Part shown: positions 40,254 to 60,712 of the stretch, one piece after another | How positions within the stretch are numbered: position 1 is the stretch's first letter | Layout: every line of letters begins with the position of its first letter | Assembly (NCBI GenBank): GCA_021738565.1 | Contig: JAIPBT010000003.1 | Location: 62,001-126,000 of the forward strand | From: Bacteroidales bacterium | GTDB lineage: Bacteria; Bacteroidota; Bacteroidia; Bacteroidales; GCA-2748055 | Length of the DNA: 64,000 nucleotides | Reading direction: 5' to 3' | Made by a program: the position numbers and the translations under genes | The notes under the pieces: model-generated | What the model was told of the DNA's origin: nothing | The model's database searches: none | What the model saw: the letters and a program-made list of their open reading frames with translations, nothing else

Positions 40254-40380
40254 ATAGTGTCTGTCCATAAAGTCTGAAAGAAAACTCGCCATATTGCCTG
40301 AGGCTGCATTCATGGAAGATAATAAAATGATCTTCAATACAGCTTCAATTTTTATTCCCGGCAAAGGCCACCGGACTTTG
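40254..40380 (-). repeat. Palindromic element, degenerate copy D
   Basis: The end 40254-40277 matches the mutY-borne copy at 21 of 24 positions (ATAGTGTCTGTCCATAAAG...). The other end, CACCGGACT at 40369-40377, matches that copy's opposite terminus. Interior is unrelated. It begins immediately after the pruA stop codon. Confidence 0.55.
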
Positions 40381-45125: not shown

Positions 45126-46325
45126 TTAATGACCCACCTCGGCCATCACCCGCATAAGGTTCCCGCTCCATATCTTTTTTATCTGGTTCGCGGAGTATCC
45201 CCTTCTTACCAGTTCTGCAGTAATATTTCCAAGCTGTGATACATCAAAACAATCCTCAACTCCGCCACCTCCGTCGAAATCTGTGCCGATACCAACATGA
45301 TTGATCCCGGCCACTTCAACAATATGATCAATGTGGTCGACCACATCCGACACTGTAGCCAGACTGGCCGGAAAATCCCTGTCAACCTTGTACCAATCCT
45401 GAAGAAAAGCCTCCCTGCCCGCCGCATCCAGTTCATAATAATTTCCATGATTCTCATATACTGCTTGTCTTGCCGAATCCCTTTTTGGATTGGGTTCCGG
45501 AGTCTTAACATAGGCGCTGAGGATACACATCTGGATAACCCCTCCGTTCTCCTTTAATTTCAGAAGCATGTCATCACTAAGGTTCCTGGGATGATCGCAA
45601 AGGGCACGGGCACAGGAGTGGGAAGCTATAACAGGTACATCACTCAACTCGATCACCTGGTAGAAGGTCTCATCGGAAGCATGGGAAAGATCTATCATGA
45701 TCCCGAGTTCATTCATGCGTTCAACCACTCTCTTGCCGAACTCTGAAACCCCCCGGTGTTCGGCAGTGTCAGTAGATGAATCACAAATGTCATTGTTATG
45801 CGAATGACAGAGGGTAATGTAGCGCACCCCGGCATTATAGAATGTATCCAGCAAGGAAATGTTTTCCCCGAGCGGATATCCGTTTTCCATTCCTATAAAA
45901 ATTGCCCGCTTCCCAATGTTCTCAAGATACCTGAGATCGGTGGGGTTGGTTGCAATTTCCATATCCCCGGGATATCTTTTTACAAGCGAATGAATTGAAT
46001 CAATAATGTTCATAGCTTCATTACAGGCCTCACTGTTTCCCTCTTCATTCCTTTCAGCCTGGCCAACAAAAGCGGCAAAGAATACACCATCCAGCCCTCC
46101 CTCTTTCATGCGCGGGATATCAAGTTTGCTGCGATGCTCAATGGGATCATGCTTTTTGGAAAAATCAAAACCCTCCCGCATCAACCACAAGGGGGTATCT
46201 ACGTGGCTATCTACAGTTACAGCTTTATCATGGACCCTGGCAGCCTTATTCAGCATCCTCTCTTCAATATTACATCCCGGGATACAAGCCAGTCCCGCCA
46301 GGATAATAAAAATTACGCCTTTCAT
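45126..46325 (-). CDS. M19 membrane dipeptidase-like lipoprotein
   Basis: Zinc dipeptidase cleaving dipeptides, some with D-residues. 399 residues: signal peptide with lipobox IPGC (Cys 18), then VDSHVDTPLWLMREG (HxD ligands), GMENGYPLG, LCHSHNNDICDS, DLSHASDETF, SHSCARAL and GIGTDFDGGGG. All expected metal-ligand segments are present. Probably anchored in the envelope. Single gene; start ATG 46325. Confidence 0.92.
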   Translation of the reverse strand: MKGVIFIILAGLACIPGCNIEERMLNKAARVHDKAVTVDSHVDTPLWLMREGFDFSKKHDPIEHRSKLDIPRMKEGGLDGVFFAAFVGQAERNEEGNSEACNEAMNIIDSIHSLVKRYPGDMEIATNPTDLRYLENIGKRAIFIGMENGYPLGENISLLDTFYNAGVRYITLCHSHNNDICDSSTDTAEHRGVSEFGKRVVERMNELGIMIDLSHASDETFYQVIELSDVPVIASHSCARALCDHPRNLSDDMLLKLKENGGVIQMCILSAYVKTPEPNPKRDSARQAVYENHGNYYELDAAGREAFLQDWYKVDRDFPASLATVSDVVDHIDHIVEVAGINHVGIGTDFDGGGGVEDCFDVSQLGNITAELVRRGYSANQIKKIWSGNLMRVMAEVGH

Positions 46326-46432
46326 TCATTATTCATTTATGTAACCCACAAAAATAATAAAAATGCGGGACCCTTTACCCAATGAATGAGAAATATATAT
46401 TTTAATAGTGAATTATATATATATATTCTTGT

Positions 46433-46600
46433 AACTGGTTAACTGGTTGCTGGTTGCTGGTTACTGGCTTGAACCCTGGCCGTTGGCTTCAATTGTGTTG
46501 CGGTGATGCGGTGATGCGGTGATGCGGTATCTTTAATACTATACAGCCATATCCGTTGATTATATACTGTCGAACCGTCGAACCGTCGAACCGTCGAACT
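46433..46600. repeat. Tandem-word block 1 (7-mers, GGTGATGC x3, GTCGAACC x4)
   Basis: Contains a GGTTxCT-type 7-bp array (46433-46467), GGTGATGC three times (46502-46525) and GTCGAACC three times plus GTCGAACT (46569-46600). The 58-bp segment 46455-46512 recurs exactly at 46630-46687. Confidence 0.85.
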
Positions 46601-46607
46601 GATTTTG

Positions 46608-46832
46608 TTGCTGGTTACTGGTTACTGGGTGCTGGTTACTGGCTTGAACCCTGGCCGTTGGCTTCAATTGTGTTGCGGTGATGCGGTATATCAGGCACTA
46701 TTTAGCTGATTCCGTTCATTTCTCACTGTCTCACTGCCTAACTGTCTCACTGTCTCACTGTCTCACTGTCTCACTGTCTCACTGTCTCACTGCCTCACTG
46801 TCTCACTGCCTCACCGACGAACCGACGAACCG
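46608..46832. repeat. Tandem-word block 2 (58-bp repeat copy, TCTCACTG array of 14 units)
   Basis: Opens with the 7-mer array and the second copy of the 58-bp repeat (46630-46687). It then holds fourteen 8-bp units (46721-46832): mostly TCTCACTG, with CCTAACTG, CCTCACTG and CCTCACCG, and ending with two ACGAACCG units. Confidence 0.88.
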
Positions 46833-46949
46833 ATTTGGTTAGTCCCGACGAGCGATAGCGAATGTCTGGATTGCTGGCTTTGAACATTGTCTGAACCATG
46901 ATTATGATGATTTTTGGATTATGATGATTTTCTTTGGTTCGGTGGCAGG

Positions 46950-47033
46950 GTTACACGGAGAACCGCAGAGATAATGGAGTTTCACAGAGTGAAGTCCTCC
47001 GTGGTTCTCAATATTCTCCGTGGTCTGCGTAAC
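46950..47033. repeat. 84-bp imperfect palindrome
   Basis: GTTAC...GTAAC ends enclose imperfect arms (ACGGAGAACCGCAGAG versus the reverse complement of its right side) around a perfect TTCAC-AGA-GTGAA hairpin at 46981-46993. The left arm also matches 48395-48417. Confidence 0.6.
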
Positions 47034-47201
47034 TAATCCTTCGTAGTGTTTTGCAACTCCTTTGTACCCTGGTCCCCCAGTCTCCAGGTCTCCCCGTCTC
47101 CGCCGTAGCTTCAGCGAAGGCGGGGCCCCTGTCCATTGGCTCCTGGCTTTTGGCCCGTAAAACTCTTTTATCCCTGCTGGATAATTATGTAATTTAGATG
47201 G

Positions 47202-47209
47202 TATATTTG
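47202..47209 (+). promoter_or_regulatory. -7 box for the metallophosphoesterase gene (TATATTTG)
   Basis: Exact TAnnTTTG 61 nt upstream of ATG 47271. Confidence 0.55.
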
Positions 47210-47270
47210 GACCTCAACCCTTCACCCCTCTCCACATGGAGGCAACAGTTGTGAGGTAAAATTATTTTAT

Positions 47271-48386
47271 ATGAAACATCTCTTCCCCCTCATCATGTCA
47301 ATTGTGTTCATCGCGGTGCTGGTTACCTCAAACATCTACCTCACCGGGAAGATCGCATGGATCTTTTCGCTGAAAAGTAAAACGTGGCTGCATATTATGT
47401 TTGCCCTGATCCCATTGTATATGATCGGTGGTATGATCGGCTTTTCAAATTCAACTTCCGCTTTGGGCACTATATTGTATGCAGGGGCTGCCGTTATCAC
47501 CGGTATTTTACTTTATATGCTGCTATCTTTTCTATTCACTGACCTGATGCAGTTGTTTTATAAATTCAAACCCATGATCTTCGGTCTGGTGGCGTTTCCC
47601 ATCACGCTTGTCATTTCCGGTTACGGACTCTGGAATGCAACCAAAACAAAACTGGTCCGGCAGGAGGTCAGCATAAGAGGACTTAATGAGCCTGTTAACA
47701 TCGCGCATTTCTCCGACAATCACCTTGGACATTTCAGGGGGATGGACCATTTGCAAAAGCTTGTCGATCTTGTTTCAGGATCAGGACAGGACATCGATAT
47801 GGTAGCAATCACCGGCGATTTGTATGATGGCAGGCGTCAGCTCAGGGAAGAGACGCTGGAGCCACTGAAAGACTTCCAGGTACCGGTCTTTTTTGTGGAG
47901 GGTAACCACGACAAATACTCGGGTGTTACAGAAATAAAACAAATGCTCCGGGAAGCCGGGTTCAGGGTGCTTGAAGATGAAACAGAACATGTCAGGAATT
48001 TACAGGTCATTGGTCTCAACCACATGCGTGCCGACGGGAATACACATTCCATTCCTCCCAATCCGACCAACCGGTCCATAAGAAGTGTGCTGGAAGGACT
48101 GGAGATCAATGCGGATATGCCTTCTATATTACTGCATCACAGTCCGGATGGCATAAAGCATGCCAATGCACATGGCATTGATCTTTACCTGGCCGGACAC
48201 ACCCATGGCGGGCAGCTCTTCCCGATGAATTACCTGAACGATGTGTTGTTCAAATACAACAGAGGGTTGGGCAACTACAACGGAACGTGGATCTATGTTT
48301 CGCAGGGTTCGGGGACATTTGGTCCGCCGATGCGGGTATGTACACGAAGCGAAGTTACGTTAATAAGATTGAAACCAGCTGAATGA
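47271..48386 (+). CDS. Membrane-anchored metallophosphoesterase
   Basis: 371 residues: four N-terminal membrane helices (~1-125) and a cytoplasmic calcineurin-like domain. Metal ligands appear as HFSDNHLG (D149, H151), TGDLYD (D183), EGNHDKY (N212, H213), LLHHSPD and AGHTHGGQLFP. Related YkuE/YaeI-type enzymes act on lipid phosphodiesters or UDP-diacylglucosamine; the substrate here is unknown. The gene stands alone between two repeat-rich flanks. Confidence 0.88.
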   Translation: MKHLFPLIMSIVFIAVLVTSNIYLTGKIAWIFSLKSKTWLHIMFALIPLYMIGGMIGFSNSTSALGTILYAGAAVITGILLYMLLSFLFTDLMQLFYKFKPMIFGLVAFPITLVISGYGLWNATKTKLVRQEVSIRGLNEPVNIAHFSDNHLGHFRGMDHLQKLVDLVSGSGQDIDMVAITGDLYDGRRQLREETLEPLKDFQVPVFFVEGNHDKYSGVTEIKQMLREAGFRVLEDETEHVRNLQVIGLNHMRADGNTHSIPPNPTNRSIRSVLEGLEINADMPSILLHHSPDGIKHANAHGIDLYLAGHTHGGQLFPMNYLNDVLFKYNRGLGNYNGTWIYVSQGSGTFGPPMRVCTRSEVTLIRLKPAE

Positions 48387-48394
48387 TTGTTTTT

Positions 48395-48417
48395 GTTACA
48401 CAGAACCGCAGAGATTA
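48395..48417. repeat. GTTACAC repeat, right-flank copy
   Basis: GTTACACAGAACCGCAGAGATTA resembles 46950-46974 on the other side of the metallophosphoesterase gene, differing by a 2-bp indel and one or two substitutions; it is written here in pieces as GTTACAC, AGAACCGCAGAGAT. Confidence 0.6.
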
Positions 48418-48419
48418 AG

Positions 48420-48480
48420 AAGTGCCTGTCAATACAGTCCAGTGGCTGGATCATAATGTTCGAGATCAAGGCGCGATCAT
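48420..48480 (+). repeat. Palindromic element, truncated copy B
   Basis: 48429-48471 matches copy A (52243-52285) at 41 of 43 positions and copy C at 43 of 48 over a slightly longer stretch. The second half of the element is missing; an 8-bp tandem array follows directly. Confidence 0.75.
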
Positions 48481-48486
48481 TTACTG

Positions 48487-48518
48487 TCTCACCGTCTCAC
48501 CGTCCCACTGTCTCACCG
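48487..48518. repeat. 8-bp tandem array TCTCACCG, four units
   Basis: TCTCACCG, TCTCACCG, TCCCACTG, TCTCACCG in direct succession: the same word family as the 14-unit array at 46721-46832, 1.7 kb away. Confidence 0.8.
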
Positions 48519-48534
48519 GTGATTCGAACTTCAG

Positions 48535-49137
48535 TTATTTCTGAAATCGTTTTTCTACCTCGTTCCAGTTGACAACATTCCAGAATGCACTGATATAATC
48601 GGGCCTGCGGTTCTGATAATTCAGATAATATGCATGCTCCCATACATCAAGTCCGAGAATGGGTTCTCCTTTGACCTCTGCCAGGTCCATGAGGGGATTG
48701 TCCTGATTGGGGGTAGAAGTGACCTCGAGTGTTCCGCCGGATTTCTTTATGAGCCATGCCCATCCTGAACCAAAGCGCGTAGCCGCAGCATTGCTGAAAA
48801 CCTCTTTGAAGCTTTCAAATGATTCAAAATCTTTGTCAATAGCAGCAGCAAGCTCGCCCCCGGGGGAACCTCCCCCGTCAGGTCCCATTATTTCCCAGAA
48901 AAGATTGTGGTTGTAATATCCTCCGCCGTTGTTCCTTACTGCAGCTGAATGACTGGATACACCGGAAAGAATTTCTTCAATTGTCTTTCCTTCAAGGTCA
49001 GTTCCCATGACGGCATCATTGAGTTTGGTTGTATAGGCACCGTGATGTTTCGTGTGATGGATCTCCATCGTGCGGGCATCAATATGCGGCTCTAATGCGT
49101 TGTAATCGTAATTGAGTTCAGGTAATTTAAATGACAT
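48535..49137 (-). CDS. sodB: Cytosolic Fe/Mn superoxide dismutase
   Basis: 200 residues without signal peptide. Metal ligands: His in MEIHHTKHH, His in NHNLFW, Asp and His in DVWEHAYY; Fe/Mn specificity cannot be decided from sequence. ATG 49137 (MSFKLPEL) is fixed by a perfect AAGGAG six bases upstream; the frame runs 30 codons further but those are not SOD-like. Paralogue of the lipoprotein SOD at 1564-2310. Confidence 0.95.
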
Positions 49138-49143
49138 ATGTTT

Positions 49144-49149
49144 CTCCTT
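49144..49149 (-). promoter_or_regulatory. Strong Shine-Dalgarno (AAGGAG) before sodB
   Basis: On the minus strand AAAAAGGAGAAACATATG precedes sodB. Nearly every other gene start in this window lacks such a site, so it stands out. Confidence 0.8.
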
Positions 49150-49227
49150 TTTAATTGTTTGAATAATCTTTATCTGTAAACAATCTAAATAAGAAAATGT
49201 TTGGTAAATTTTCGATCTGGAAAACAT

Positions 49228-49235
49228 TACCTTTG
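49228..49235 (+). promoter_or_regulatory. -7 box for ychF (TACCTTTG)
   Basis: Exact TAnnTTTG 33 nt upstream of ychF; a TTTG at 49200-49203 may serve as -33 though the spacing is a little long. Confidence 0.55.
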
Positions 49236-49268
49236 CTGTTGCAGGTTTAAATTAAAAATTACTCATTA

Positions 49269-50363
49269 ATGGCTTTAAAATGCGGAATAATAGGTATTGC
49301 CAATGTTGGTAAGTCAACCCTGTTTAACTGTATGTCCAATACAAAAGTTGAAACAACCAATTTTGCATTCACCTCCAACAAATCTAACATCGGCGTTGTG
49401 CAAGTTCCTGATCCAAGGCTGTATAATCTTGAAAAATTCCAGACTACCGAAAAGATCATCCCTGCAACAGTTGAGATCGTTGACATACCCGGACTCACAA
49501 AAGGAGCGAATAAAGGCGAGGGTGTGGGGAACCAGTTTCTTGCAGACATCCGGAATACGGATGCCCTGATCCAGGTCCTGAGATGTTTTGACGACGATGA
49601 CCTTGCACACATTGAAGGATCTGTAGACCCGGTAAGGGACATTGAAACGATCAACCTGGAATTGCAGGTCAAAGACCTTGAATCTGTTGAAAAGAAAATA
49701 GAGCGGCTGGAAAAAACAGCCAAATCGGGCGACAAAGATGCAAGGAGAGGCATAGAGGTACTGCAGCAGTACAAGGCACATCTTGAAAATTTTCAGAATG
49801 CCTCCACGTTAGAAATCTCTGAATCTGACAAGAAGTTCATAGAGGATCTTTTTTTGCTGACTGTAAAACCTGTGATGTACGTTTGCAATGTCGATGACGG
49901 CTCGGCAATATCTGAAAATCAATATGTCAGCGCGATAAAAGAATATCTGAAAGATGAAAATACTGAGGTCCTTGTTATTGCCGGCAAACTAGAGTCTGAG
50001 ATCGCCGAGCTCGATGCTGATGACAGGGTGGAATTCCTAAGTGATGCCGGCCTGGATGAACCCGGTGTAAACAAGCTGATTCGATCGGCCTACGCTATGC
50101 TTGATCTGATGTCGTTTTTTACTGTCGGGCCAAAAGAGATCAGGGCGTGGACCATCAAAAGGGGGATGACCGCGCCGCAGGCCGCAGGCGCCATTCACAG
50201 CGACCTTGAGAGAGGATTTATCCGCGCAGAGGTCATGAAATACGAAGATTTTGTGAAACTTGGATCGGAAAATGCATGCAAGGAGGCCGGAAAATTTCAT
50301 ATTGAAGGGAAAAATTACGTGGTACAGGATGGCGATATTCTCCACATCCGATTCAATGTCTGA
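49269..50363 (+). CDS. ychF: Redox-regulated ATPase YchF (Obg family)
   Basis: 364 residues, full family length. P-loop GIANVGKSTLFN, switch DIPGLTKGANKGEG, NxxE-type specificity motif VCNVDD in place of NKxD (basis of ATP preference), and a C-terminal TGS domain (FFTVGPKEIRAWTI, AGAIHSDLERGFIRAEV). Ribosome-associated translation and stress factor. Start ATG 49269. Confidence 0.96.
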   Translation: MALKCGIIGIANVGKSTLFNCMSNTKVETTNFAFTSNKSNIGVVQVPDPRLYNLEKFQTTEKIIPATVEIVDIPGLTKGANKGEGVGNQFLADIRNTDALIQVLRCFDDDDLAHIEGSVDPVRDIETINLELQVKDLESVEKKIERLEKTAKSGDKDARRGIEVLQQYKAHLENFQNASTLEISESDKKFIEDLFLLTVKPVMYVCNVDDGSAISENQYVSAIKEYLKDENTEVLVIAGKLESEIAELDADDRVEFLSDAGLDEPGVNKLIRSAYAMLDLMSFFTVGPKEIRAWTIKRGMTAPQAAGAIHSDLERGFIRAEVMKYEDFVKLGSENACKEAGKFHIEGKNYVVQDGDILHIRFNV

Positions 50364-50427
50364 TACAACATGTGAGAGCGAGGCGGTTGCATGAGTGAAG
50401 AAATTTGTTAATTAAGAATCTATATAG

Positions 50428-52128
50428 ATGAAAATACCCAAATACATTCTTGTCCTGCTGCTGGTATTTTCAAACATTTCTTTATCAGGACAAGCCCCCG
50501 TAAATGAAAGCATCCGTGTCCGCATACCCATGCACGAGAGAGCTCTGTTGGACGAAGCCAGATTTGAGTTCTACAGGGAGAATTTCAGGAACGACAGCCT
50601 CGACATTGAAGTGACCAAAGCAGGACTTACGCAGTTCAAAAAAATGTATCCGGGACTGAAACTTCTGCCTGATGCTCCATTGATTGACGATTCCGATATG
50701 GCCGGCAATCTTGATGAAGCCATGACCTTCACAAAATACCCCACCTACGAACAGTACGACAGTATGATGCATTACTTTGCTTCCAGTTATCCGGAAATCT
50801 GCAAGATAGATACCTTTGGTTTCAGCCTCCAGGGACGGTTGCTGCTGGCGCTTAAAATATCAGACAATGTGCATGCTGAAGAGGATGAACCTGCATTTCT
50901 GTATACTTCTACAATTCACGGGGACGAACTAATTGGATACATCCTCACACTCAGACTGATCGATTTTATCCTGAAAAACCACCAGATCAATTCAGAAGCA
51001 GCAAAGATCGTTGATGGCATAGAACTCTGGATCAATCCCCTGTCGAACCCGGATGCAACCTATTATCCCGATGACAACAGCAGTGTTACAGGTTCCCGGC
51101 GCACCAACATCAGCGGGTATGACCTGAACCGCAATTTTCCCGACCCTGCCGCGGGAGATGCAAATGATACCGCCGGTATCCAGCTTGAAAACCAGTGGAT
51201 GATGTTGTTTATGCAGGATAAAGAATTCAACCTGTCTGCAAACCTGCATTCAGGAGCTGAAGTGGTGAATTATCCCTGGGACCACAAGAGTGACCTGCAC
51301 CCTGATAATGATTGGTTTATATTGATATCCAGGGAATATGCAGATGAAGCCACGCTTATAAATCCGGCCTATATGGATGAATTCACTGACGGTATCACCA
51401 ACGGATATGCCTGGTATGATATATATGGGGGCAGGCAGGATTATGTAACCTACTACCTTCAAGGAAGGGAGTTAACCCTGGAGTTGAGCAATGTTAAAAA
51501 AGTGCCATCTGAAAACCTTGAGACGTACTGGAACTATAACAAATGGAGCCTTATCAATTTGATAACACAGGCAAAGTATGGCATACATGGAAATATAACC
51601 AGCAACAAGGACGGTTCACCTGTCAGGGCAAAAATCCGGGTTGACAAGCACGATGACTCAACATCATGGGTGCAGAGTGACTCTATTTCAGGCAATTTTT
51701 ACAGGTACATAAAAGAAGGAATATATGACCTGATCATAGAGGCAGAGGGATTCATTCCGGATACAATCCGGTCGGTTGATGTTGCCGATTACAAAAGAAC
51801 CGGAATATTCTGGCAATTAGAAAGTGTAAGAACGGATTCCTCGGACAAAAACGATACAACTGCAATAAATATTGAAGTGTCAGGGGAGCAATTCCGGGTT
51901 TATCCCGTACCTGCTGAAGATTTCATACGCATTGAATTAAATACTGTGATTCATTCACAAGCAGCATACATGATGATCAGCGCTTCGGGGACCCATGTTT
52001 TTGAAGGGAAAATTCCCAGGGATATAAAAGCGATCGAACTTGATGTTTCGGAACTAAAACCTGGTTTTTATATCATCTATATCAACGAAGCAAATAATTT
52101 ATTCAGATCACCGGTATTAATTTTATAA
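50428..52128 (+). CDS. Secreted M14 zinc carboxypeptidase with T9SS sorting domain
   Basis: 566 residues. Signal peptide (~1-21, cleavage near LSG), M14 catalytic domain ~100-390 with STIHGDELIG (H164, E167), DLNRNFPDP, NLHSGAEVVNYPWD (third zinc ligand) and the catalytic Glu in LTLELSNVK. A carboxypeptidase-regulatory-like beta domain follows (~395-465), then a type A T9SS sorting domain (FRVYPVPAEDFIRIE ... LKPGFYIIYI ... RSPVLIL). So it should be exported and then secreted or surface-attached. Ties functionally to porG, gldD and gldE in the window. Confidence 0.92.
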   Translation: MKIPKYILVLLLVFSNISLSGQAPVNESIRVRIPMHERALLDEARFEFYRENFRNDSLDIEVTKAGLTQFKKMYPGLKLLPDAPLIDDSDMAGNLDEAMTFTKYPTYEQYDSMMHYFASSYPEICKIDTFGFSLQGRLLLALKISDNVHAEEDEPAFLYTSTIHGDELIGYILTLRLIDFILKNHQINSEAAKIVDGIELWINPLSNPDATYYPDDNSSVTGSRRTNISGYDLNRNFPDPAAGDANDTAGIQLENQWMMLFMQDKEFNLSANLHSGAEVVNYPWDHKSDLHPDNDWFILISREYADEATLINPAYMDEFTDGITNGYAWYDIYGGRQDYVTYYLQGRELTLELSNVKKVPSENLETYWNYNKWSLINLITQAKYGIHGNITSNKDGSPVRAKIRVDKHDDSTSWVQSDSISGNFYRYIKEGIYDLIIEAEGFIPDTIRSVDVADYKRTGIFWQLESVRTDSSDKNDTTAINIEVSGEQFRVYPVPAEDFIRIELNTVIHSQAAYMMISASGTHVFEGKIPRDIKAIELDVSELKPGFYIIYINEANNLFRSPVLIL

Positions 52129-52166
52129 AGTTTGTCCTGAGCAGGTCCGGCTTCAATTGAAATAAC

Positions 52167-52174
52167 TAAATTTG
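52167..52174 (+). promoter_or_regulatory. -7 box upstream of the PafA-like gene (TAAATTTG)
   Basis: Exact TAnnTTTG located before the palindromic element, 272 nt from the start codon. Confidence 0.45.
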
Positions 52175-52233
52175 CAAATCCTTCATACCGGATTACAGCC
52201 GGAATGAAAGATACAGTCAGCAATTGATGTATT

Positions 52234-52427
52234 TAGAGTCGGTCAATAAAGTGCAGTGGCTGGATCATAATGTTCGAGATCAAGGGTTATTCCCTGCGGT
52301 CATGAGCTCAAAACGTATCGTTTTTCGGTTGCGAAGTCGGGAAATGCGGAGTTCTGATAATTTTTTCAGGATGAGCAATTTCCCGACGAGCATAACGATG
52401 ATATCGGACATTATGGACAGACACTAT
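52234..52427 (+). repeat. Palindromic element, full copy A
   Basis: Imperfect terminal inverted repeats: TAGAGTCGGTCAATAAAGT at the left matches the reverse complement of the right end (ATAGTGTCTGTCCATAATGT) at most positions. An inner stem GTCGGGAAAT/ATTTCCCGAC lies in the unique middle. The right 28 bp differ from copy C by one base. No coding capacity. Confidence 0.8.
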
Positions 52428-52446
52428 TTAAGATCAGGATTTCAAT

Positions 52447-54084
52447 ATGAATATAAAAAAGAATTTTCTCACTTGTCTGATAATTTTCAGCACCATTTAT
52501 GCCGATGCCCAGCGCATACCTTCCGAAAAACCCAAGCTTATTGTCGGGATCACCATTTCCGGAATGAGGTATGATTACCTCTCTTCGTACTGGGAGCAAT
52601 TCAGTGGCAGGGGATTTAAAAGATTGGCAGGAACGGGCACCTTTTGCAAAAATGCCGCATTTGATCAGCTTATCACCGAATCAGCCGTTGGTTATGCGAC
52701 CATAAGCACCGGATCAAGGTCGGATGCGCATGGCATCGTGGCCGATTACTGGTATGAAAGGATTTCACGGGAAGTTACATACTGCGTATCTGACCCAGAT
52801 GCATACAACGTCCTGTTCGATGATGAAAACGGGCACGTATCACCACGGAACATGTTATCCCGCACACTCTCTGACGAAATGAGGATCACATCCCAGTTCA
52901 AATCAAAAGTAATCGGTGTTGGAATGGATCCAAAGGCTCCGGTTCTGCTCTCCGGTCATACTGCCAACGCAGCTTACTGGTTCGATTCAAAATATGGAAA
53001 GTGGACCACCAGCACCTATTATACAGATTCCCTGCCTTCCTGGGTCAAAGAAATAAATGACAAGAATTACAAGGATATTTATAAGGATAAAATATGGGAA
53101 ACCCTTTTGCCTGAAAATGAATATACGGCCAGCATGCCGGACAGCAATGCCTACGAAATAGGATTTGACGGCAGGATCGAGTTCCCTTATGACCTGAAAA
53201 AGATCAAAGATGTTTCCGGTGAAAAGGATTATACAATACTTAAATATACCCCGTTCGGCAACACATACACCAAAGATATGGCCATTGCAGCCATTGTCAG
53301 TGAAGAGCTTGGATTGGATGAGAAAACGGACTGGATAAACATCAGCTTCAATTCGGGCATGTTCCTTTCCGAGAGGTTTTCAACATGGTCTGTGGAAATA
53401 CAGGATATGTACCTTAGACTTGACCAGGATCTTGGACATTTGCTGGAATTCCTGGATGACCAGGTAGGTCTTGAGAACACACTCATATTCCTGACCTCCG
53501 ATCATGCCTATGCCGATGATCCGGAAATTCTTGCACAGCACAGAGTGCCGTCAGGGTTTTTCAATTATTACAGCACGATTTCGCTGTTGAAATCTTATCT
53601 AAACGCAATATATGGACAGGGCGAGTGGATAACGTTTTACTACGCCAACCAGGTCTACCTCAACCATCAACTCATTGAAGATTCCAGGTTGTCATTGCAA
53701 GAGATGCAGGACAGGGTTGCGAGTTTCCTGATACAATTTTCCGGAATCTCTAACGCGCTTCCTTCATACATTTTGCTCAGGAATAACTTTACTGAAGGTG
53801 TTTATAGCAGGATCCAGCACAGCTATAATCAGAAAAGATCGGGAGATGTGATGATTTACCTTACTCCGGGTTGGATTGAGAAAGGAAGTGAATACAGGGA
53901 ATCCCTTTCAAATTTTCATTATGATGCCCATGTGCCCCTGGTATTCTATGGCTGGAAGATCAACAGGATCACCATTCCGGAAAGGGTTACTCCGCTTGAC
54001 ATTGTTCCCACAATAGCTTATTACCTTGGCATTTCTGCTCCGGAAAATTCAACAGGGAATGTTATTACCGGGATGGTGAGGTAA
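52447..54084 (+). CDS. PafA-like alkaline phosphatase homologue, probable pseudoenzyme
   Basis: 545 residues with signal peptide (cleavage near YADAQ) and the whole PafA-type fold recognisable (GMRYDYL, HGIVADYWYER, TTSTYYT, YLRLDQDL, HVPLVFYG). From memory of Elizabethkingia PafA, the positions of zinc ligands D38, D305 and H309 read Ser38, Met305 and Glu309; nucleophile T79 reads Ser79; N100 reads Asp; K162/R164 read Asp/Lys. Only the Asp-His pair (SDH, 352-353) and the final His (495) remain. It is intact as a reading frame, so it may be a secreted binding or structural protein rather than a phosphatase. Confidence 0.82.
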   Translation: MNIKKNFLTCLIIFSTIYADAQRIPSEKPKLIVGITISGMRYDYLSSYWEQFSGRGFKRLAGTGTFCKNAAFDQLITESAVGYATISTGSRSDAHGIVADYWYERISREVTYCVSDPDAYNVLFDDENGHVSPRNMLSRTLSDEMRITSQFKSKVIGVGMDPKAPVLLSGHTANAAYWFDSKYGKWTTSTYYTDSLPSWVKEINDKNYKDIYKDKIWETLLPENEYTASMPDSNAYEIGFDGRIEFPYDLKKIKDVSGEKDYTILKYTPFGNTYTKDMAIAAIVSEELGLDEKTDWINISFNSGMFLSERFSTWSVEIQDMYLRLDQDLGHLLEFLDDQVGLENTLIFLTSDHAYADDPEILAQHRVPSGFFNYYSTISLLKSYLNAIYGQGEWITFYYANQVYLNHQLIEDSRLSLQEMQDRVASFLIQFSGISNALPSYILLRNNFTEGVYSRIQHSYNQKRSGDVMIYLTPGWIEKGSEYRESLSNFHYDAHVPLVFYGWKINRITIPERVTPLDIVPTIAYYLGISAPENSTGNVITGMVR

Positions 54085-54142
54085 ATCTCTTTTCCTTACT
54101 GCTCAGATAGGTCGTAATGGTTTTATTTTGTACCAGGGCGGA

Positions 54143-54778
54143 TCACTTTTTACAGCTCCAAACCAGTGCATAGTTCTCATGGTGAAGGTATTCCAGGTCA
54201 AAATCCTCTTCACCCGCACTGTTTACAACATGTCCCCTGATAAAACCATTATCCTCCGGAGTGAACGGCATAATGGTGATCCCCTCCTTGAAATTCACAT
54301 CCTGCCTGTCGCATATTTTGTAGAGCGCCTCTTTTGCACACCAGTGCAGGTACAGGTGAAATTTCCTGTTGGCAGGATCTCTGGTTATGGATTCCCGGCT
54401 ATTGATAAATTTATGTCCAAGCTTGCTGATCTTGCCCGACATATATTCAAGATCGATCCCCACACGTTTGTCCGAACTGACGAGTATAGCTGTGAGGCTC
54501 CTGGAATGTGAAATACTTATCCTGGCTTTCCCGTTGTTGAGAAAGGGTTTGTTCTCCTTGTTATAAGTAATCCTTACATCTTCCCCCTTCATGCTCCTTA
54601 TAAGGGCCCTGACAGACAGCCATTCAAGTTTCCTGTTGACACTTCTGAAACTGTCAAGACGTGCCCTCTCTGCCCTGCCCAAACGAACCATCGAATAAAG
54701 TGTGTCGAAGTCCTCCGTAATCTCCCATACCCCAAGCAGGCATTCAGGTTGTATTTCAGTCTTTAAAAATATACCCAC
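54143..54778 (-). CDS. 4'-phosphopantetheinyl transferase, Sfp-like
   Basis: Activates carrier proteins by attaching the CoA-derived arm. 211 residues with the magnesium-binding RVGIDLEYM and the WCAKEALYKI motif; the family hallmark SHS also appears (ISISHSRSLTA). Start is GTG 54778 (MGIFLKTEIQ); no better ATG is near. Neighbour of the gldE-gldD genes, a frequent Bacteroidota arrangement. Confidence 0.9.
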   Translation of the reverse strand: MGIFLKTEIQPECLLGVWEITEDFDTLYSMVRLGRAERARLDSFRSVNRKLEWLSVRALIRSMKGEDVRITYNKENKPFLNNGKARISISHSRSLTAILVSSDKRVGIDLEYMSGKISKLGHKFINSRESITRDPANRKFHLYLHWCAKEALYKICDRQDVNFKEGITIMPFTPEDNGFIRGHVVNSAGEEDFDLEYLHHENYALVWSCKK

Positions 54779-54856
54779 AAAAAATGAGTTTTATTCATCT
54801 AATTGCGACCGGCAAATTTAAGAATTATTTACTCGGTACAATTGAAGTATAACAAG

Positions 54857-55423
54857 CTATTTCCATTTTACCGATTCTACCATGTATTCAATATCTTTCC
54901 TAACGAAATCTATAACCGGGTCAAGAGAATCCCGGTTTGGAGTGGTATTAAAATACAGAGATCCCCTCAGGAAATGTTCAGTACTGTCGGTCACAAAAAA
55001 CTGTACAGGTGAGGCTACTTCTCCCTGAAGATCATAAATGATACCGTATCTTTTGTCTGCCGTATCCAGAAATTGTATTTCAACAATACCGTCAGCCCTG
55101 GAAGTATGCTTGTAAACGAGTGTACGGGTGTCTGCAATGTATTCAGAAAGATTGTTATTTATGCGTTTATAACTTAGGTGAATGGTACCGTCAAATCCCG
55201 GGAAATAGACATCATACCAGTAAGGTTCACTGTTTTCAGCCGTGTTAGGAAGGACTTTTGCATAAACCGGGTATTTAAATTCATACGGGCCTGCCCCCCG
55301 AAACATGGAATAGTTCTTTTCAGGATAATCGATCCTCAGGTATCCGGCAGGTTTTGGTGTATAATTTTGCCTGCATGAATACAGCATCAGAAGGGCCAGC
55401 AACAACATCGGTTTAATCTTCAT
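54857..55423 (-). CDS. gldD: Gliding-motility lipoprotein GldD
   Basis: 188 residues. Lipoprotein signal peptide with lipobox LYSC (Cys17), then YTPKPAGYLRIDYPEK and YSMFRGAGPYEFKYP, typical of GldD. Needed for gliding in Flavobacterium, but widespread also in non-gliding relatives. Its start overlaps the gldE stop by 11 bp, so the two are translationally coupled. Confidence 0.93.
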   Translation of the reverse strand: MKIKPMLLLALLMLYSCRQNYTPKPAGYLRIDYPEKNYSMFRGAGPYEFKYPVYAKVLPNTAENSEPYWYDVYFPGFDGTIHLSYKRINNNLSEYIADTRTLVYKHTSRADGIVEIQFLDTADKRYGIIYDLQGEVASPVQFFVTDSTEHFLRGSLYFNTTPNRDSLDPVIDFVRKDIEYMVESVKWK

Positions 55424-56732
55424 CCGGAACTTCCTCTTTAATAATCACTTTGACCTGTTTTATTCTTCTTTTATCCATTTCAGTAACAGTAAAACGGACA
55501 TGTTTACAATTCAAAGTATCATTTATCCTGGGAAAATCGCCCTTTAGTTCAAGGATTAATCCGGCCAGTGTCTCTGCATCTCCCTTCACATCATCAAATA
55601 CATCATCTTCCATTTCTGTTACCTTGTAAAAATCATTCAACAAAGTCTTGCCATCGAACAAATAGGTTTTCTTATCGATCTTTTTAAACAATTCAACTGC
55701 ATCATCTGATTCATCAGTTATTTCGCCAACCACTTCTTCAAGTATGTCTTCCATTGTAACAATACCTTTCATACCTCCATATTCATCCACCACGATGGCA
55801 AGATGAATTTTGGTCTGCTGGAATTCCTTCAGCAGGTCGTTGATCTTTTTGGTTTCAGGGACAAAAAATGGAGGTCGTATCAACGTCTGCCATTTGAATC
55901 GGGCTTTCTTAATGTGGGGAAGCAGGTCCTTTACATATAAAATGCCATTTATATTATCTGCTTTTCCTTCAACAACCGGTATTCTGGAATAACCTGAATC
56001 AAGCACTACTTTAATCAGTTCCTTCATGGATGTATTGATATCAATGATAACAACATCCATTCTTGGTTTCATGATCTCTGATGCTTCAAGGTTACTGAAC
56101 TTAACAATACCTTCCAGCATCTTTTTCTCTTCGGAGAATACACCTGTGGCAATATCCAGTGCCTCTGAAAGATCCTCCATCGATATGTACTGCTTTTTTC
56201 CGGCCATTGCTTTGTTCACCATGGAAGTTGATTTGGTAAGCAGGTATATCAGCGGACGGAATAATTTACTGAGCACCTCAAGGGGTACGGCCATGAACAT
56301 TGCAAAGGATTCCGATTTCTTCTCTGCATATATTTTTGGAACAATCTCTCCGAACAACAGGATCATGAAAGTGATCACTACTACCTGGATAATAAAGCCG
56401 ATCACTGGTAACGCGGAAGCATCCATTACAGATGTGGTGACAAAACTTGACAATATTACAATAGCCACATTCACGAAATTGTTAGAAATAAGGATATTTG
56501 CAAGCAGGTCCTCCGGTTTCTTCAACATTTCCAATGCAATATTGGATTTGCGTGTATCACTCTCCTCAAGTGATTCCTTCTCCCGGGGGGTAAGTGAGAA
56601 ATAGGCCACTTCCGAACCGGATATCAGGGCCGAACACACCAACAGTACAACAACTACAACCAAATCAATAATGGTTGATGTTGTTAATGGATTTAGCACC
56701 AATTGCAATATCGGGTAAACTGTTTGTTCCAA
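55413..56732 (-). CDS. gldE: GldE, CNNM/CorC-type membrane protein
   Basis: 439 residues: DUF21 membrane domain with about four helices (~20-150, SGSEVAYFSLTPREK), two CBS domains (~205-330, MKPRMDVVIID; HLAIVVDEYGGMKGIVTMEDILEE) and a CorC/HlyC-type C-terminal domain. The start codon is TTG 56732 (MEQTVYPILQ); an in-frame TAA lies nine bases upstream and no ATG is available. Partner of gldD. Ion transport by this subgroup is unproven. Confidence 0.92.
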   Translation of the reverse strand: MEQTVYPILQLVLNPLTTSTIIDLVVVVVLLVCSALISGSEVAYFSLTPREKESLEESDTRKSNIALEMLKKPEDLLANILISNNFVNVAIVILSSFVTTSVMDASALPVIGFIIQVVVITFMILLFGEIVPKIYAEKKSESFAMFMAVPLEVLSKLFRPLIYLLTKSTSMVNKAMAGKKQYISMEDLSEALDIATGVFSEEKKMLEGIVKFSNLEASEIMKPRMDVVIIDINTSMKELIKVVLDSGYSRIPVVEGKADNINGILYVKDLLPHIKKARFKWQTLIRPPFFVPETKKINDLLKEFQQTKIHLAIVVDEYGGMKGIVTMEDILEEVVGEITDESDDAVELFKKIDKKTYLFDGKTLLNDFYKVTEMEDDVFDDVKGDAETLAGLILELKGDFPRINDTLNCKHVRFTVTEMDKRRIKQVKVIIKEEVPDED

Positions 56733-56754
56733 ACCAGAAGTTTAGTTTTACAAA

Positions 56755-57240
56755 CTAGAAGGGAAGATCGTCAGGTTCATCTCCTTGACCTGAGAAATCT
56801 TCCTTTGGTTCACTTGCAGACTTTGGGGTCTGTTTTGATTGGTCTGACGAGGATGCTGTATTGTTTGAACCAGATTCAGATTGGGAACTACCTCCATCCT
56901 GGTCGTCCTGTTGTTTTCTGCCAAGCATTTGCATGTTGTCACCGACGATCTCCGTAATGTATCTCTTTATCCCATCCTTATCATCATAGGACCTGCTGCG
57001 GATCCTTCCCTCAATGTATAACGGGGAACCCTTTTTGACATATTTTTCAGCGACCTGCGCCAATCCGCGCCATAACACAATGTTGTGCCACTCGGTTTGC
57101 TCAATCTTTTCTCCATCCCTGTTCCTGTATACCTCGCTGGTAGCAAGTGGAAACTTACACACAGGAGTATTTTCATCCAGGTATCTTACATCAGGGTCTT
57201 TACCAACATTTCCAACAAGAATAACTTTATTAACTGCCAT
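56755..57240 (-). CDS. ssb: Single-stranded DNA-binding protein
   Basis: 161 residues: OB fold ~1-108 (MAVNKVILVGNVGKDPDVRY given as its segment NKVILVGNVGKDP; WHNIVLWRGLA; YIEGRIRSRSYDDKDG), a Ser/Gln/Gly-rich linker and the acidic protein-interaction tip DDLPF. Start ATG 57240, between mutY and gldE on the same strand. Confidence 0.96.
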   Translation of the reverse strand: MAVNKVILVGNVGKDPDVRYLDENTPVCKFPLATSEVYRNRDGEKIEQTEWHNIVLWRGLAQVAEKYVKKGSPLYIEGRIRSRSYDDKDGIKRYITEIVGDNMQMLGRKQQDDQDGGSSQSESGSNNTASSSDQSKQTPKSASEPKEDFSGQGDEPDDLPF

Positions 57241-57264
57241 CGCTGTTTTTTTTTATTAGGATTT

Positions 57265-57272
57265 CAAAGATA
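57265..57272 (-). promoter_or_regulatory. -7 box for ssb (TATCTTTG)
   Basis: Exact TAnnTTTG on the minus strand 24 nt before the ssb ATG, in the 54-bp mutY-ssb gap. Confidence 0.6.
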
Positions 57273-57294
57273 AACATTTGTGAGGACATATAAA

Positions 57295-58500
57295 TCATAA
57301 TTGATTTTGTTCCAGGTATCGATCAATGAGTCTCGGTAATGGATATTCCGACAGATCGCAGGTTCTTATTCGTTTCCAGCCATCAGCAGTTAGCTGATTT
57401 CTCTCCAGCATGTTTATATGAATAAATCTCGCGTGAATGATCCTGTGTGTTAAATGGTGCCGAATCCCCTCAGAAACACCGGAAATCTCAAAATCACCGG
57501 ACATTAAGCCGGTGAGATCCTCAATAGTGCCTGTCCATAATGTCCGATATCTGCGTTGCTGCAAAAATTGTAAATCCTCGAATCCGTCCGTCGGCGGATA
57601 CTGCGGTTTAAAATTTTTACGCGCCTTGATCTCGAACATTGTGATATAGTCACCGGACTGTATTGACGAACTCTCAACATGTCCAGCTTCCTGCCCATTC
57701 CAGGTAATTTGATCCTGCTCGATCATGGGAAATTCATACATGCTCTTCCAGATGTCCTCGCCGGTTCTTTTACGTATGTAAGTATGTCCATATTGTTTGA
57801 TTACAAAATAGGTAAAGTACCTGTTTTTACGTTTTGTCTGTTTCAGTTTCAACGGAAATTTATCTGATGCATTGAGCCTGTAAGATTCACATATATGATT
57901 TAGAGGGCATTCCCGGCAGTTCGGATTTACCGGTGTGCATTGAAGGGCTCCGAATTCCATGATCGCCTGGTTATGATTTCCAGGCACATCCCTGTCTAAC
58001 AATTCAAAGGCAAGTTCACTGATCTTCCGGGCGCCTTCAGTGGAATTAACAGGCTCTCCTACAGCAAACAGGCGACCCAGAACACGTGAGACATTGCCGT
58101 CAACCACAGCAACCGGCTCACCGAAAGCAATTGATGCCACTGCTGCGGCAGTATAAGGTCCAACACCCTTTAACTTCAGCAATGCATCGTAATTCCCGGG
58201 GAACTTACCATTGTACACAGACACAATCTCCCTGGATGCCTGGTGCATGTTCCTCGCCCTGGAATAATACCCGAGCCCCTGCCAGAATTTCATCACTGTT
58301 TCTTCACTGGCTGCTGCCAGAGATTGAACATCTGGAAATTTTTCCACAAACCTGATGTAATAATCCAGCCCCTGGCTGACGCGGGTTTGCTGGAGGATAA
58401 TTTCCGACAACCATATTCTGTAGGGATCAGAAGTACTTCTCCATGGCAGCTGACGTTTGTATTTTTTATACCATTCTGTTATTATCTCGCTAATTTTCAT
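57295..58500 (-). CDS. mutY: Adenine DNA glycosylase MutY with in-frame repeat insertion
   Basis: Removes adenine opposite 8-oxoguanine. 401 residues, about 50 more than I expect for this phylum. The catalytic domain is intact: Glu in LSEIILQQTR, helix-hairpin-helix LKGVGPYTAAAV, Asp in AVVDGNVSR, and iron-sulfur cysteines C188, C195, C198, C204. The C-terminal NUDIX-like domain contains residues ~278-326 encoded by a dispersed palindromic element (57524-57669), inserted in frame without a stop. The distal part (HLTHRIIHARFIH) resumes normal MutY sequence, so the enzyme may remain active. Confidence 0.93.
   Translation of the reverse strand: MKISEIITEWYKKYKRQLPWRSTSDPYRIWLSEIILQQTRVSQGLDYYIRFVEKFPDVQSLAAASEETVMKFWQGLGYYSRARNMHQASREIVSVYNGKFPGNYDALLKLKGVGPYTAAAVASIAFGEPVAVVDGNVSRVLGRLFAVGEPVNSTEGARKISELAFELLDRDVPGNHNQAIMEFGALQCTPVNPNCRECPLNHICESYRLNASDKFPLKLKQTKRKNRYFTYFVIKQYGHTYIRKRTGEDIWKSMYEFPMIEQDQITWNGQEAGHVESSSIQSGDYITMFEIKARKNFKPQYPPTDGFEDLQFLQQRRYRTLWTGTIEDLTGLMSGDFEISGVSEGIRHHLTHRIIHARFIHINMLERNQLTADGWKRIRTCDLSEYPLPRLIDRYLEQNQL
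57524..57669 (-). repeat. Palindromic element, full copy C inside mutY
   Basis: 57620-57667 matches copy B at 43 of 48 positions; 57524-57551 matches the end of copy A with one mismatch in 28. Inner complementary segments (AAAAATTGTAAATCC with GGTTTAAAATTTTT; ATCCG with CGGAT) make it a long imperfect hairpin. It adds about 49 codons to mutY. Confidence 0.85.
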
Positions 58501-58558
58501 TATATTCGCCCTCTCTGTAAAGCTCTTTTCATATTGGAACTAAAATTAACCCAAAACG

Positions 58559-58591
58559 TTTGTAATTAATTGTGAAAAACAATTATATTTG
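58559..58591 (+). promoter_or_regulatory. Complete Bacteroidota promoter for the HU-family gene
   Basis: TTTG at 58559-58562 (-33) and TATATTTG at 58584-58591 (-7), separated by 21 nt: the best full promoter in the window, giving a leader of roughly 48 nt. Confidence 0.75.
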
Positions 58592-58645
58592 CAGAATATT
58601 AAAACGGATATAACGTAAATCATTGATAATTAAAGGTTTTATAAA

Positions 58646-58930
58646 ATGACTAAAGCAGATATCGTTAACGAGATTTCCAAAAAAACTGGAATTGAAAAAG
58701 TAACTGTTCAAAAAACAGTTGAAGCATTCATGGAATCCATCAAAGATTCTTTAAGCGACAACAAAAATGTATATCTAAGGGGATTTGGCAGTTTTATTGT
58801 TAAAAAGAGAGCCAAGAAAACTGCAAGGAACATTTCAAAGAACACTACAATTATTATTCCCGAACATTTTATTCCTTCATTCAAGCCCGCTAAGACTTTT
58901 GTAAATAAAGTCAAGACAAACGTTAAGTAA
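58646..58930 (+). CDS. HU/IHF-family DNA-binding protein
   Basis: 94 residues: MTKADIVNEISKKTGIEK (helical dimer part), then the beta-arm and its GFGSFIVKKRAKKTARN stretch, ending FKPAKTFVNKVK. Nucleoid-associated DNA bending protein. Start ATG 58646 with an AAAGG ten bases upstream. Followed at once by the mS38-like microprotein gene. Confidence 0.94.
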   Translation: MTKADIVNEISKKTGIEKVTVQKTVEAFMESIKDSLSDNKNVYLRGFGSFIVKKRAKKTARNISKNTTIIIPEHFIPSFKPAKTFVNKVKTNVK

Positions 58931-58951
58931 TTATACTAGAAATTCATTATC

Positions 58952-59044
58952 ATGCCTAGCGGAAAAAAAAGGAAAAGACATAAAATGTCGACACATAAGC
59001 GTAAAAAGCGCTTAAGGAAGAACAGGCACAAGAAGCGGAAATAA
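58952..59044 (+). CDS. AURKAIP1/COX24-type basic microprotein (mS38-like)
   Basis: 30 residues: MPSGKKRKRHKMSTHKRKKR followed by LRKNRHKKRK. About 70 percent Lys, Arg and His. Bacteroidota carry such a protein, annotated as AURKAIP1/COX24 domain, which resembles the small mitoribosomal protein mS38, so a place in the ribosome is likely. ATG 58952 to TAA 59044, 21 nt after the HU-family gene, closed by a strong terminator; the two genes probably form one transcript. Too short for most gene finders. Confidence 0.85.
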   Translation: MPSGKKRKRHKMSTHKRKKRLRKNRHKKRK

Positions 59045-59075
59045 TAATAATTTGTTCTTTTCAAAAAATTACAGT

Positions 59076-59112
59076 AAACCTAAAGCGTGGATCGCTTTAG
59101 GTTTATTTCTGT
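59076..59112 (+). terminator. Strong hairpin terminator after the HU-mS38 unit
   Basis: A perfect 12-bp stem AAACCTAAAGCG/CGCTTTAGGTTT with a 5-nt loop, followed by ATTTCTGTT. It separates the HU-mS38 unit from rng. Confidence 0.85.
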
Positions 59113-59149
59113 TAAACGTCATTAGCAGGATTAATAAAGATATTAAATT

Positions 59150-60712
59150 GTGAGCAGTGAATTGGCTATCAAAGCCTCCGAAAAGGAGGTCTCAATTGCT
59201 CTGCTGGAGGATAAAAGACTTGTTGAGCTGAACCACTCACAACCCGAACAGAAATTTTCGGTTGGAGACATCTATCTTGCCAGGGTTAAAAAAATCATGC
59301 CCAGTCTGAACGCAGCATTCATCAATGTAGGGTATGAAAAGGATGCTTTTCTTCATTACCTGGATCTCGGTCCCCAGTTCAGTACTCTTGGGAAATATGT
59401 GAACCAGTCGATTAACAGGAGGGGGCGCTCCATTGCCGTATCAAAGTTCAAGAGAGAAAAGGACATCAACAAACACGGCAAGATCAACGAGGTTTTGAAA
59501 GCAGGAAAGATCGTCCTTGTTCAGGTGGCAAAGGAGCCCATTTCAACAAAAGGGCCCCGGCTCACCTCCGAGATATCAATTGCAGGCAGGAACCTGGTAT
59601 TAATGCCTTTTTCAGATAAGGTTTCCATCTCATCAAAAATATCATCTCAGGAGGAACGTGACAGGCTTCGCAACCTGATTACCAGCATCAGACCAAATAA
59701 TTATGGTGTCATCGTACGAACGGTTGCTGAAAAAACCAAAGTGGCCGAGCTTGACATTGAACTCAGGACCCTGGTCAGAAAATTTGAAAAAGCACTGGAA
59801 AGTATAAACATCAAGGACCTCCCCCAGCTTGTTATTGAGGAACAAAGCAGAGCTACATCTGTAATAAGGGATCACCTCAATGGTAATTTTGAAAACATAT
59901 TCATTGATAACCGCGAAGTATACCAGGAAGTTAAGCAGTATATCAGCGAGGTAGCCCCTGAAAAGGAAAAAATTGTAAAGCTATACAGTGGCAAACAATC
60001 CTTGTTTGAAAAGTTTGACATTGAAAGGCAGATCAAAACTTCTTTTGGAAATACAGTTTCCTTTAAGCAGGGTGCCTACCTGATCATTGAGCACACCGAG
60101 GCACTCCATGTGATCGATGTCAACAGTGGCAACAGGTCCAAATCGGGACTCGACCAGGAGTCCAATGCCACTGAAGTAAACCTGGCAGCAACTGAAGAAA
60201 TTGCCCGCCAATTGAGACTGCGTGATATGGGCGGAATCATCGTTGTGGATTTTATTGACATGCACAAGTCTGATAACAAGCAAAAAGTGTATGACCGAAT
60301 GAAAGAGGTAATGTCGAAAGACAAGACCAAACACAACATATTGCCTCTCAGTAAATTCGGCCTTATGCAGATCACGCGTCAACGTGTCAGGCCAGAAATG
60401 CATGTAGAAACCGCTGAGTCTTGCCCTACCTGTAATGGAACCGGGAAAGTGCAACCGACAATACTGCTGGAAGACAGTGTCAAACTGGAACTTGTTGCAC
60501 TTATAAGCCAAAACAGCCTGAAAAAAATTACATTACAGGCTCATCCATATTTTGCTGCATACCTTCAGCATGGCCGAAGATCGGTAATCAGGCAATGGAG
60601 AAAAGAGATGAAATGCAGGATCACTGTTGAATCTCTTGCATCATGCAGTCTCCACGAATTTATCATTCTTGATATAAACGGTGATCAGTTGTTGCGAAAG
60701 ACCAAAATGTAA
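59150..60712 (+). CDS. rng: Ribonuclease G (RNase E/G family)
   Basis: Endoribonuclease for rRNA maturation and mRNA decay. 520 residues: S1 domain ~35-130 (GDIYLARVKKIMPSLNAAFI), 5'-sensor and DNase I-like catalytic part with HVIDVNSGN and GGIIVVDFIDM (metal-binding Asp residues), and the zinc-link CPTCNGTG near 424. Start is GTG 59150 (MSSELAIKAS). Single gene after the terminator. Confidence 0.95.
   Translation: MSSELAIKASEKEVSIALLEDKRLVELNHSQPEQKFSVGDIYLARVKKIMPSLNAAFINVGYEKDAFLHYLDLGPQFSTLGKYVNQSINRRGRSIAVSKFKREKDINKHGKINEVLKAGKIVLVQVAKEPISTKGPRLTSEISIAGRNLVLMPFSDKVSISSKISSQEERDRLRNLITSIRPNNYGVIVRTVAEKTKVAELDIELRTLVRKFEKALESINIKDLPQLVIEEQSRATSVIRDHLNGNFENIFIDNREVYQEVKQYISEVAPEKEKIVKLYSGKQSLFEKFDIERQIKTSFGNTVSFKQGAYLIIEHTEALHVIDVNSGNRSKSGLDQESNATEVNLAATEEIARQLRLRDMGGIIVVDFIDMHKSDNKQKVYDRMKEVMSKDKTKHNILPLSKFGLMQITRQRVRPEMHVETAESCPTCNGTGKVQPTILLEDSVKLELVALISQNSLKKITLQAHPYFAAYLQHGRRSVIRQWRKEMKCRITVESLASCSLHEFIILDINGDQLLRKTKM

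Follow-up and report, generated by a model that had tools for sequence, protein, structure and literature searches.

In a Bacteroidales genome, the gene for the repair enzyme MutY carries a copy of a dispersed mobile element inside its coding frame. We regard it as highly probable (a probability of roughly 0.88) that a MITE, likely moved by an ISNCY-family transposase, inserted into mutY in frame and is tolerated there as a loop of 51 residues. In-frame palindromic mobile elements in conserved enzymes are best known from Rickettsia, and the event is thus rare but of a known kind; the case itself, in a repair enzyme and (as detailed below) in a secreted protein, is new. A repair-enzyme case outside Rickettsia, accompanied by a target duplication, a likely insertion sequence (IS) and a second in-frame case, makes the survival of such insertions measurable. 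To the original prediction, which had proposed the in-frame element from one stretch of DNA of 64,000 nucleotides (the whole stretch is called the window in the following), the present analysis adds the ends of the element, its target duplication, an ISNCY-type partner, two core subfamilies, covariation of the hairpin and the second in-frame case.

The mutY gene lies at positions 57295-58500 on the minus strand of the window and encodes an A/G-specific adenine glycosylase of 401 aa (TIGR01084, E 2.4e-95; PF00730; PF14815 in two stretches), with an HhH-GPD domain, the Fe-S cysteines, the catalytic Glu and Asp and a C-terminal NUDIX-like domain. Genome matches, the alignment of copies, the ends and the subfamily assignment place a 149-bp MITE copy (AGTG...CTCT) of core subfamily 1, likewise on the minus strand, at 57526-57674. 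Comparison of the flanks shows an imperfect target-site duplication, namely CAAT at 57522-57525 on the low-coordinate side and CAAC at 57675-57678 on the high-coordinate side (or, in the 6-bp form, TCAATA at 57521-57526 and TCAACA at 57674-57679), with one mismatch between the two. The 149 bp of the element and one 4-bp repeat amount to 153 bp, or 51 codons, which correspond to MutY residues 276-326, and the frame stays open across the element and the rest of the gene, with 401 codons and neither a stop nor a frameshift. The insert had first been placed at 57524-57669, with a gain of 49 residues (278-326); the insert and the in-frame gain hold, as does the claim that no stop is made and that MutY resumes beyond it, but the ends were a few bases off and the gain is 51 residues. 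The insertion is known from one assembly of the species.

The element belongs to a family that is dispersed over the genome (3.98 Mb in 83 contigs; G000 in the following). At least 53 genome matches to the mutY element were found (from scoring 40 of the 122 initial candidates), at least 32 of which, the mutY copy itself included, span 117 bp or more, and an alignment of 30 copies revealed that they have their ends in common and an inverted repeat in the middle. Allowing up to two mismatches, the genome contains 247 sites of the end pattern AGTGYYTGTCMATAAWGTY (133 forward and 114 reverse) against 3 sites for a control in which the pattern was read backwards; together with the genome matches, these counts bear out the proposal of a dispersed palindromic element in frame inside mutY. 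Among 60 relatives searched, ten or more such sites were found in G039 (71), G036 (18), G003 of the same genus (17), G035 (15) and G028 (10), and the remaining 55 hold at most 7 each, which is within the control range. Inverted pairs of ends no more than 400 bp apart delimit at least 83 complete copies in G000; this is a lower bound, the copies having been gathered from stretches around end sites that total 372 kb with the window included (the first 100 of the 247 end sites, together with sets of 67 and 100). Their length is 143-150 bp in 57 of the 83, they contain no transposase and their reading frames are no more open than chance. By their cores, 35 and 29 of the 68 copies sized 125-200 bp form two subfamilies, with the outer ~40 bp common to both, and the mutY copy is one of the 29 in core subfamily 1. 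The element is therefore a MITE, a short, non-autonomous element in which a long hairpin is bounded by two imperfect terminal inverted repeats.

Other traces of the family exist within the window, all on the plus strand. The relative that had been seen at 52234-52427 is indeed a complete copy of 191 bp (52235-52425, from genome and flank comparison), which has another core, lies between ORFs and is flanked by TATTTA on both sides; the sole ORF across it (116 aa) is absent once the element is removed. The match at 48420-48480 also holds, but what it contains is a partial copy (48421-48475, by single-end match), with one recognisable end and ~55 bp and no second end. The original prediction had missed a lone terminal repeat, AGTGTCTGTCCATAAAGTC, which the end-pattern search located at 40256-40274 (contig coordinates C65:102256-102274). 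Rfam gave no match across positions 46000-60000 of the window.

The bases directly outside the copies mostly read T-NNNN-A. Identical 6-mers stand on both sides of 49 of the 83 copies, and at least five of the six positions match in 65; when the right flanks were reshuffled 2000 times, identical 6-mers occurred in 7.6 copies on average and in 18 at most. Under the criteria for pairing, a weak end could pass if the duplication was good, and in a stricter set (75 copies with at most three end mismatches in all) 46 have identical 6-mers. A target-site duplication, as expected for a MITE, is thus present; its length is 4 to 6 bp, since it can be read either as 4 bp inside a preferred T...A or as 6 bp, and the frame arithmetic is equal in both cases.

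A candidate for the enzyme that moves the family exists in the same genome. A search of G000 with PF01609 returned three transposase places, and one of these transposases (on contig C32) sits between the ends AGAGTCTGTCAATAGAGT and AGAGTTTGTCTATAAAGTC of a 1640-bp IS with TAATTA on both sides. It belongs to the ISNCY family (NF033593, 372.6 bits against a cut-off of 325), and no other place in G000 scores above that cut-off. The ends of this IS differ from the MITE pattern by 2 and 3 mismatches of 19, and one of them is identical to one MITE copy at 19 of 20 positions, so the genome holds an autonomous relative whose ends are similar rather than identical, with the same type of target. Its interior has nothing in common with the MITEs, the overlap being confined to the ends and the target type; the MITEs, in turn, have no transposase and no recognisable IS interior. 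Judged from these sequences, the ISNCY element is likely to mobilise the MITEs in trans, and it is not their direct parent, because only the ends are shared and these with 2 and 3 of 19 mismatches.

Relatives of this IS were sought in other genomes. G003 holds one of 1639 bp, with the ends AGGGTCTGTCCATAAAGTC and AGAGTCTGTCAATAGAGTA, whose TGTC(A/C)ATA motifs differ between the two sides, one having A and the other C, and the MITEs show the same asymmetry. In this G003 element (contig C28; L175, 1262-2900) the transposase is split into two ORFs, and there is no matching target duplication. Other genomes speak against the ISNCY element as mobiliser: G039, with its 71 end sites, has an ISNCY fragment but no such ends in the locus of that fragment; G028 gave four weak ISNCY matches, and G035, G036, G001 and G002 gave none. 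Several other partners were considered and rejected. Specifically, (i) the PF01609 transposases on contigs C71 and C56 lack such ends, the best sites having at least 4 mismatches, (ii) the ORFs enclosed by the long end pairs (1029, 1381 and 2203 bp) do not look like a transposase gene, and the sole NF033593 match of G000 is placed elsewhere, and (iii) the IS1202 group, which is described with 5′-TGT ends (PMC10132070), differs in its ends, and the C32 IS is not a member of that group as described there.

At the protein level, the insert is absent from relatives. MutY was collected from 27 of 40 relatives and from at least 80 named Bacteroidota loci, giving 107 sequences. The original prediction had named the presence of the same residues in MutY of distant Bacteroidota as the finding that would speak against an insertion; this was looked for, and a search with the inserted peptide (E up to 1) did not hit the MutY of any of the 107 relatives, 80 of which come from named Bacteroidota. 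It had also anticipated a gap in relatives, which is what the alignment gives: MutY has 401 residues here against a median of 350 in 105 complete relatives (334-373 in 102 of these, and 390, 422 and 432 in the other three), and the loop between the EFP-type and the H-x-L-T-H-type motif has 89 residues here against a median of 38 in relatives, a difference of 51. This loop could be measured in 87 of the 107 relatives; the 20 without a measurable motif pair include L058, a partial MutY that was also left out of one of the sequence sets (A1).

Within the C-terminal NUDIX-like domain, the insert occupies a loop that precedes the H-x-L-T-H motif. Three relatives are extended at this place as well, by unrelated sequence (loops of 75 residues in L032, 120 in L035 and 113 in L043), and the C-terminal loop of MutY can therefore be considered tolerant of insertions. 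As a separate observation, long loops of 50 to 120 residues occur in L032, L035, L043, L049 and L050 and are tandem-repeated in L035 and L049, and no element ends were found in the loops of L032, L035, L043 and L049. An AlphaFold2 model of the window MutY, built with 45 of the 80 named loci (set A2), reaches a pLDDT of at least 90 for 290 of the 401 residues and falls below 50 at residues 269-304 and 324-333, around the insert; both domains are kept in the model and the loop lies outside the core. The model matches the solved MutY 9bs2 (which we take to be that of Geobacillus) with Z 36.9 over 340 residues. In 46 sequences, comprising set A2 and this one, the invariant positions are E33 and D134 (presumably the catalytic Glu and Asp), C188, C195, C198 and C204 (presumably the Fe-S cysteines), H348, L350 and H352. 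MutY with the insert is probably functional.

The course of events was most probably the following. Most likely, an ISNCY-family transposase moves the MITE in trans, and the MITE enters T-NNNN-A sites and duplicates 4 to 6 bp there. One copy inserted into mutY, where its 149 bp plus 4 bp make a multiple of three, in an orientation and phase that belong to the few stop-free combinations. The ribosome would read through the element and add 51 residues, and the insertion, probably tolerated and nearly neutral, would have been retained as one that left the enzyme presumably unbroken.

It is unlikely that MutY was instead inactivated or altered by the insert, in which case the gene would be a mutator allele or a pseudogene at an early stage, its frame open by chance. 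Among 28 copies compared in its subfamily the mutY copy is the most diverged (nearest 9.4%, mean 14.4%), which suggests age or lack of constraint, and its changes (2 synonymous and 11 non-synonymous, with 3.0 synonymous expected, P 0.38; 3 of the 13 differences fall in a loop with poor alignment between the 143- and 149-bp copies) fit a lack of constraint and are not significant as a sign of adaptive change. However, the residues invariant in the 45 relatives are retained, the 401 codons run without stop or frameshift, both domains are predicted to be intact with the loop outside the core, and the loop reaches 75-120 residues in three relatives. Distinctly unlikely, in our view, is the proposal that the MITE family acts as a source of frame-neutral loops and that the mutY copy has been adapted into a working loop, tuning the enzyme and the mutation rate; on this reading, the adaptation would account for the divergence of the copy within its family, for the weakening of its hairpin and for the replacement of G-W-I-I by D-Y-I-T.

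How often the copies are read in frame can be estimated from the whole family. When the flanks were joined by script at the 83 sites and ORFs of at least 100 aa were sought, such an ORF crossed the empty site in 17 cases, and in 2 of those 17 it is open with the element in place. These two are mutY (350 to 401 aa) and an ORF on contig C41 (139 to 190 aa), both with copies of the 149-bp class; the other 15 are closed with the element in place, most of these ORFs being putative genes, defined by length. With the element in place, 67 of the 83 copies have no contact with any ORF of 100 aa. The genome-wide count of copies in coding frames that the original prediction had suggested thus recovers a dispersed family, but few members of it (2 of 83) lie in frame in a conserved gene.

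The second in-frame copy is located at G000:C41:44249-44821 (L103, 3222-3794), with the element at L103 3255-3403. The protein is conserved, measures ~140 aa without the insert and has no Pfam or NCBIfam match; the insert of 51 residues splits an apparent signal peptide (judged by eye) and is absent in nine aligned relatives. The ORF is matched in 18 of 30 relatives, with 17 of the best matches beginning at residue 60 or later, and the match in G028 covers the element part alone. On the strength of this sequence comparison, the C41 ORF is a true second in-frame case. ORFs of 61-116 aa run across six further copies (including the 116-aa ORF over the 191-bp window copy), and all six cases were taken as chance: four have no 100-aa ORF across the empty site, and in the other two (C5 and C50) the empty-site ORF differs from the one seen with the element.

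Across 68 copies, 16 of 408 combinations of phase and orientation read through in frame. Two in-frame survivors among many insertions therefore require no special design, and the in-frame copies give the impression of a random process with few survivors, not of an element built for hiding in genes. The latter view, according to which the element would be a selfish palindrome that codes, like those of Rickettsia, and is held to one open frame by selection so as to hide in proteins, is very unlikely. It can point to two independent in-frame cases of the same 149-bp class (mutY and the C41 secreted protein), to a third frame that is open in 9 of the 12 subfamily 1 copies that measure 143 or 149 bp and in 12 of the 15 subfamily 0 copies that measure 148 bp, and to slightly high synonymous changes in one set of copies (30 against 24.2 ± 3.9). 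That excess, the largest, is 1.5 standard deviations, and the other sets are near expectation (14 against 11.7 ± 3.0, 18 against 14.7 ± 3.2, and 18-20 against 18-20), so that all four copy sets lie within ~1.5 standard deviations; selection for an open frame is not supported, as no significant synonymous excess was found in them. Moreover, at least one of the six frames is open in 31-39% of the shuffled versions of three copies, element lengths of 144, 148 and 150 bp would break the frame together with the 4-bp repeat, and most copies are clear of any 100-aa ORF. The claim that selection keeps the element open is thus not upheld by the shuffles, the synonymous counts or the scarcity of in-frame copies. 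The similar peptide that had been noticed in another copy of the window follows from the similarity of the DNA.

The parallel drawn with the Rickettsia palindromic elements (RPEs) holds as an analogy. In the sections of the literature consulted, RPEs are ~150 bp long, palindromic and dispersed, and some are in frame in genes with the insert tolerated (PMC10969869, PMC6649704); nearly half lie in ORFs, each encoding a conserved peptide, in the part of PMC10969869 that treats them. The element described here is also palindromic and dispersed, with in-frame copies in genes, but readthrough of a conserved gene is limited to 2 of its 83 copies, and there is no sign of selection on the peptide, so that the conserved peptide and the large genic share do not carry over. 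Its identified ends, duplication and likely transposase are counted as a further difference. As the comparison is one of descriptions and not of sequences, the element may be said to work like the RPEs, and membership is not claimed. The nearest published parallel that we have seen for occasional in-frame MITEs is formed by QMITE1 and QMITE2 of Coxiella burnetii, which, in the text available from PMC5896051, have ~50 copies, are occasionally in frame in ORFs and are fused to hypothetical genes or gene ends; host and direct repeats differ (2-3 and 7-11 nt, against 4-6 here). BrickBuilt of Porphyromonas gingivalis is likewise a MITE in a Bacteroidota genome, but it is strictly intergenic according to the passage devoted to it in PMC10969869, in contrast to the in-frame copies here. 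Among the open-licence papers listed, no report was found of a MITE in mutY or of ISNCY-linked MITEs in Bacteroidota.

Single strands of the copies are predicted to fold into one long hairpin, at -40 kcal/mol for the mutY copy, which is weaker than in five other copies (-46 to -70 kcal/mol). Related elements were found in G003, G004, G028 and G035, at other genomic places. Eight elements were aligned from four genomes (four rows from G000, two from G003, and one each from G004 and G028), and 12 of the 46 pairs have both partners changed in one or more of the sequences; the structure was drawn from the same alignment, and two of the eight rows (both of G003) have lost one end. Shuffling the 3′ letters gave a mean of 3.8 such pairs, with none of 500 shuffles reaching 12, and sliding the partners gave 2 to 5 pairs. 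Inside single-genome subfamilies covariation is weak, at 1 pair of 57 in one and 6 of 55 in the other. The two-sided changes across four genomes therefore argue that the hairpin belongs to the element and predates the species.

A long hairpin, together with the palindromic elements that are bypassed in Magnusiomyces mitochondrial genes (as recounted in a portion of PMC6649704), could be taken to mean that translational bypassing omits the element and that MutY is made without the insert; this is highly improbable, since a bypass is unnecessary for an insert that keeps the frame and has no stop, and the hairpin of the mutY copy is weaker than those of the five others. No support was found for the idea that mutY has long contained the 51 residues and that the dispersed element derives from them, and its probability is negligible given that the peptide is missing from MutY of 107 relatives, that related elements with ends sit elsewhere in other genomes and that the mutY copy is just one of 29 in its subfamily. 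Annotators should be cautious with such loops, which are not necessarily old domains.

Two minor observations concern the surroundings of other copies. The 8-bp repeats ACTGTCTC/ACTGCCTC form an array at 46741-46814 of the window, and similar units at 48483-48500 adjoin the partial MITE copy. Elsewhere in the genome, MITE copies are clustered at G000:C73:1-9800 (L140) and on G000:C53 (L111, L113), some of them abutting the end of another copy.
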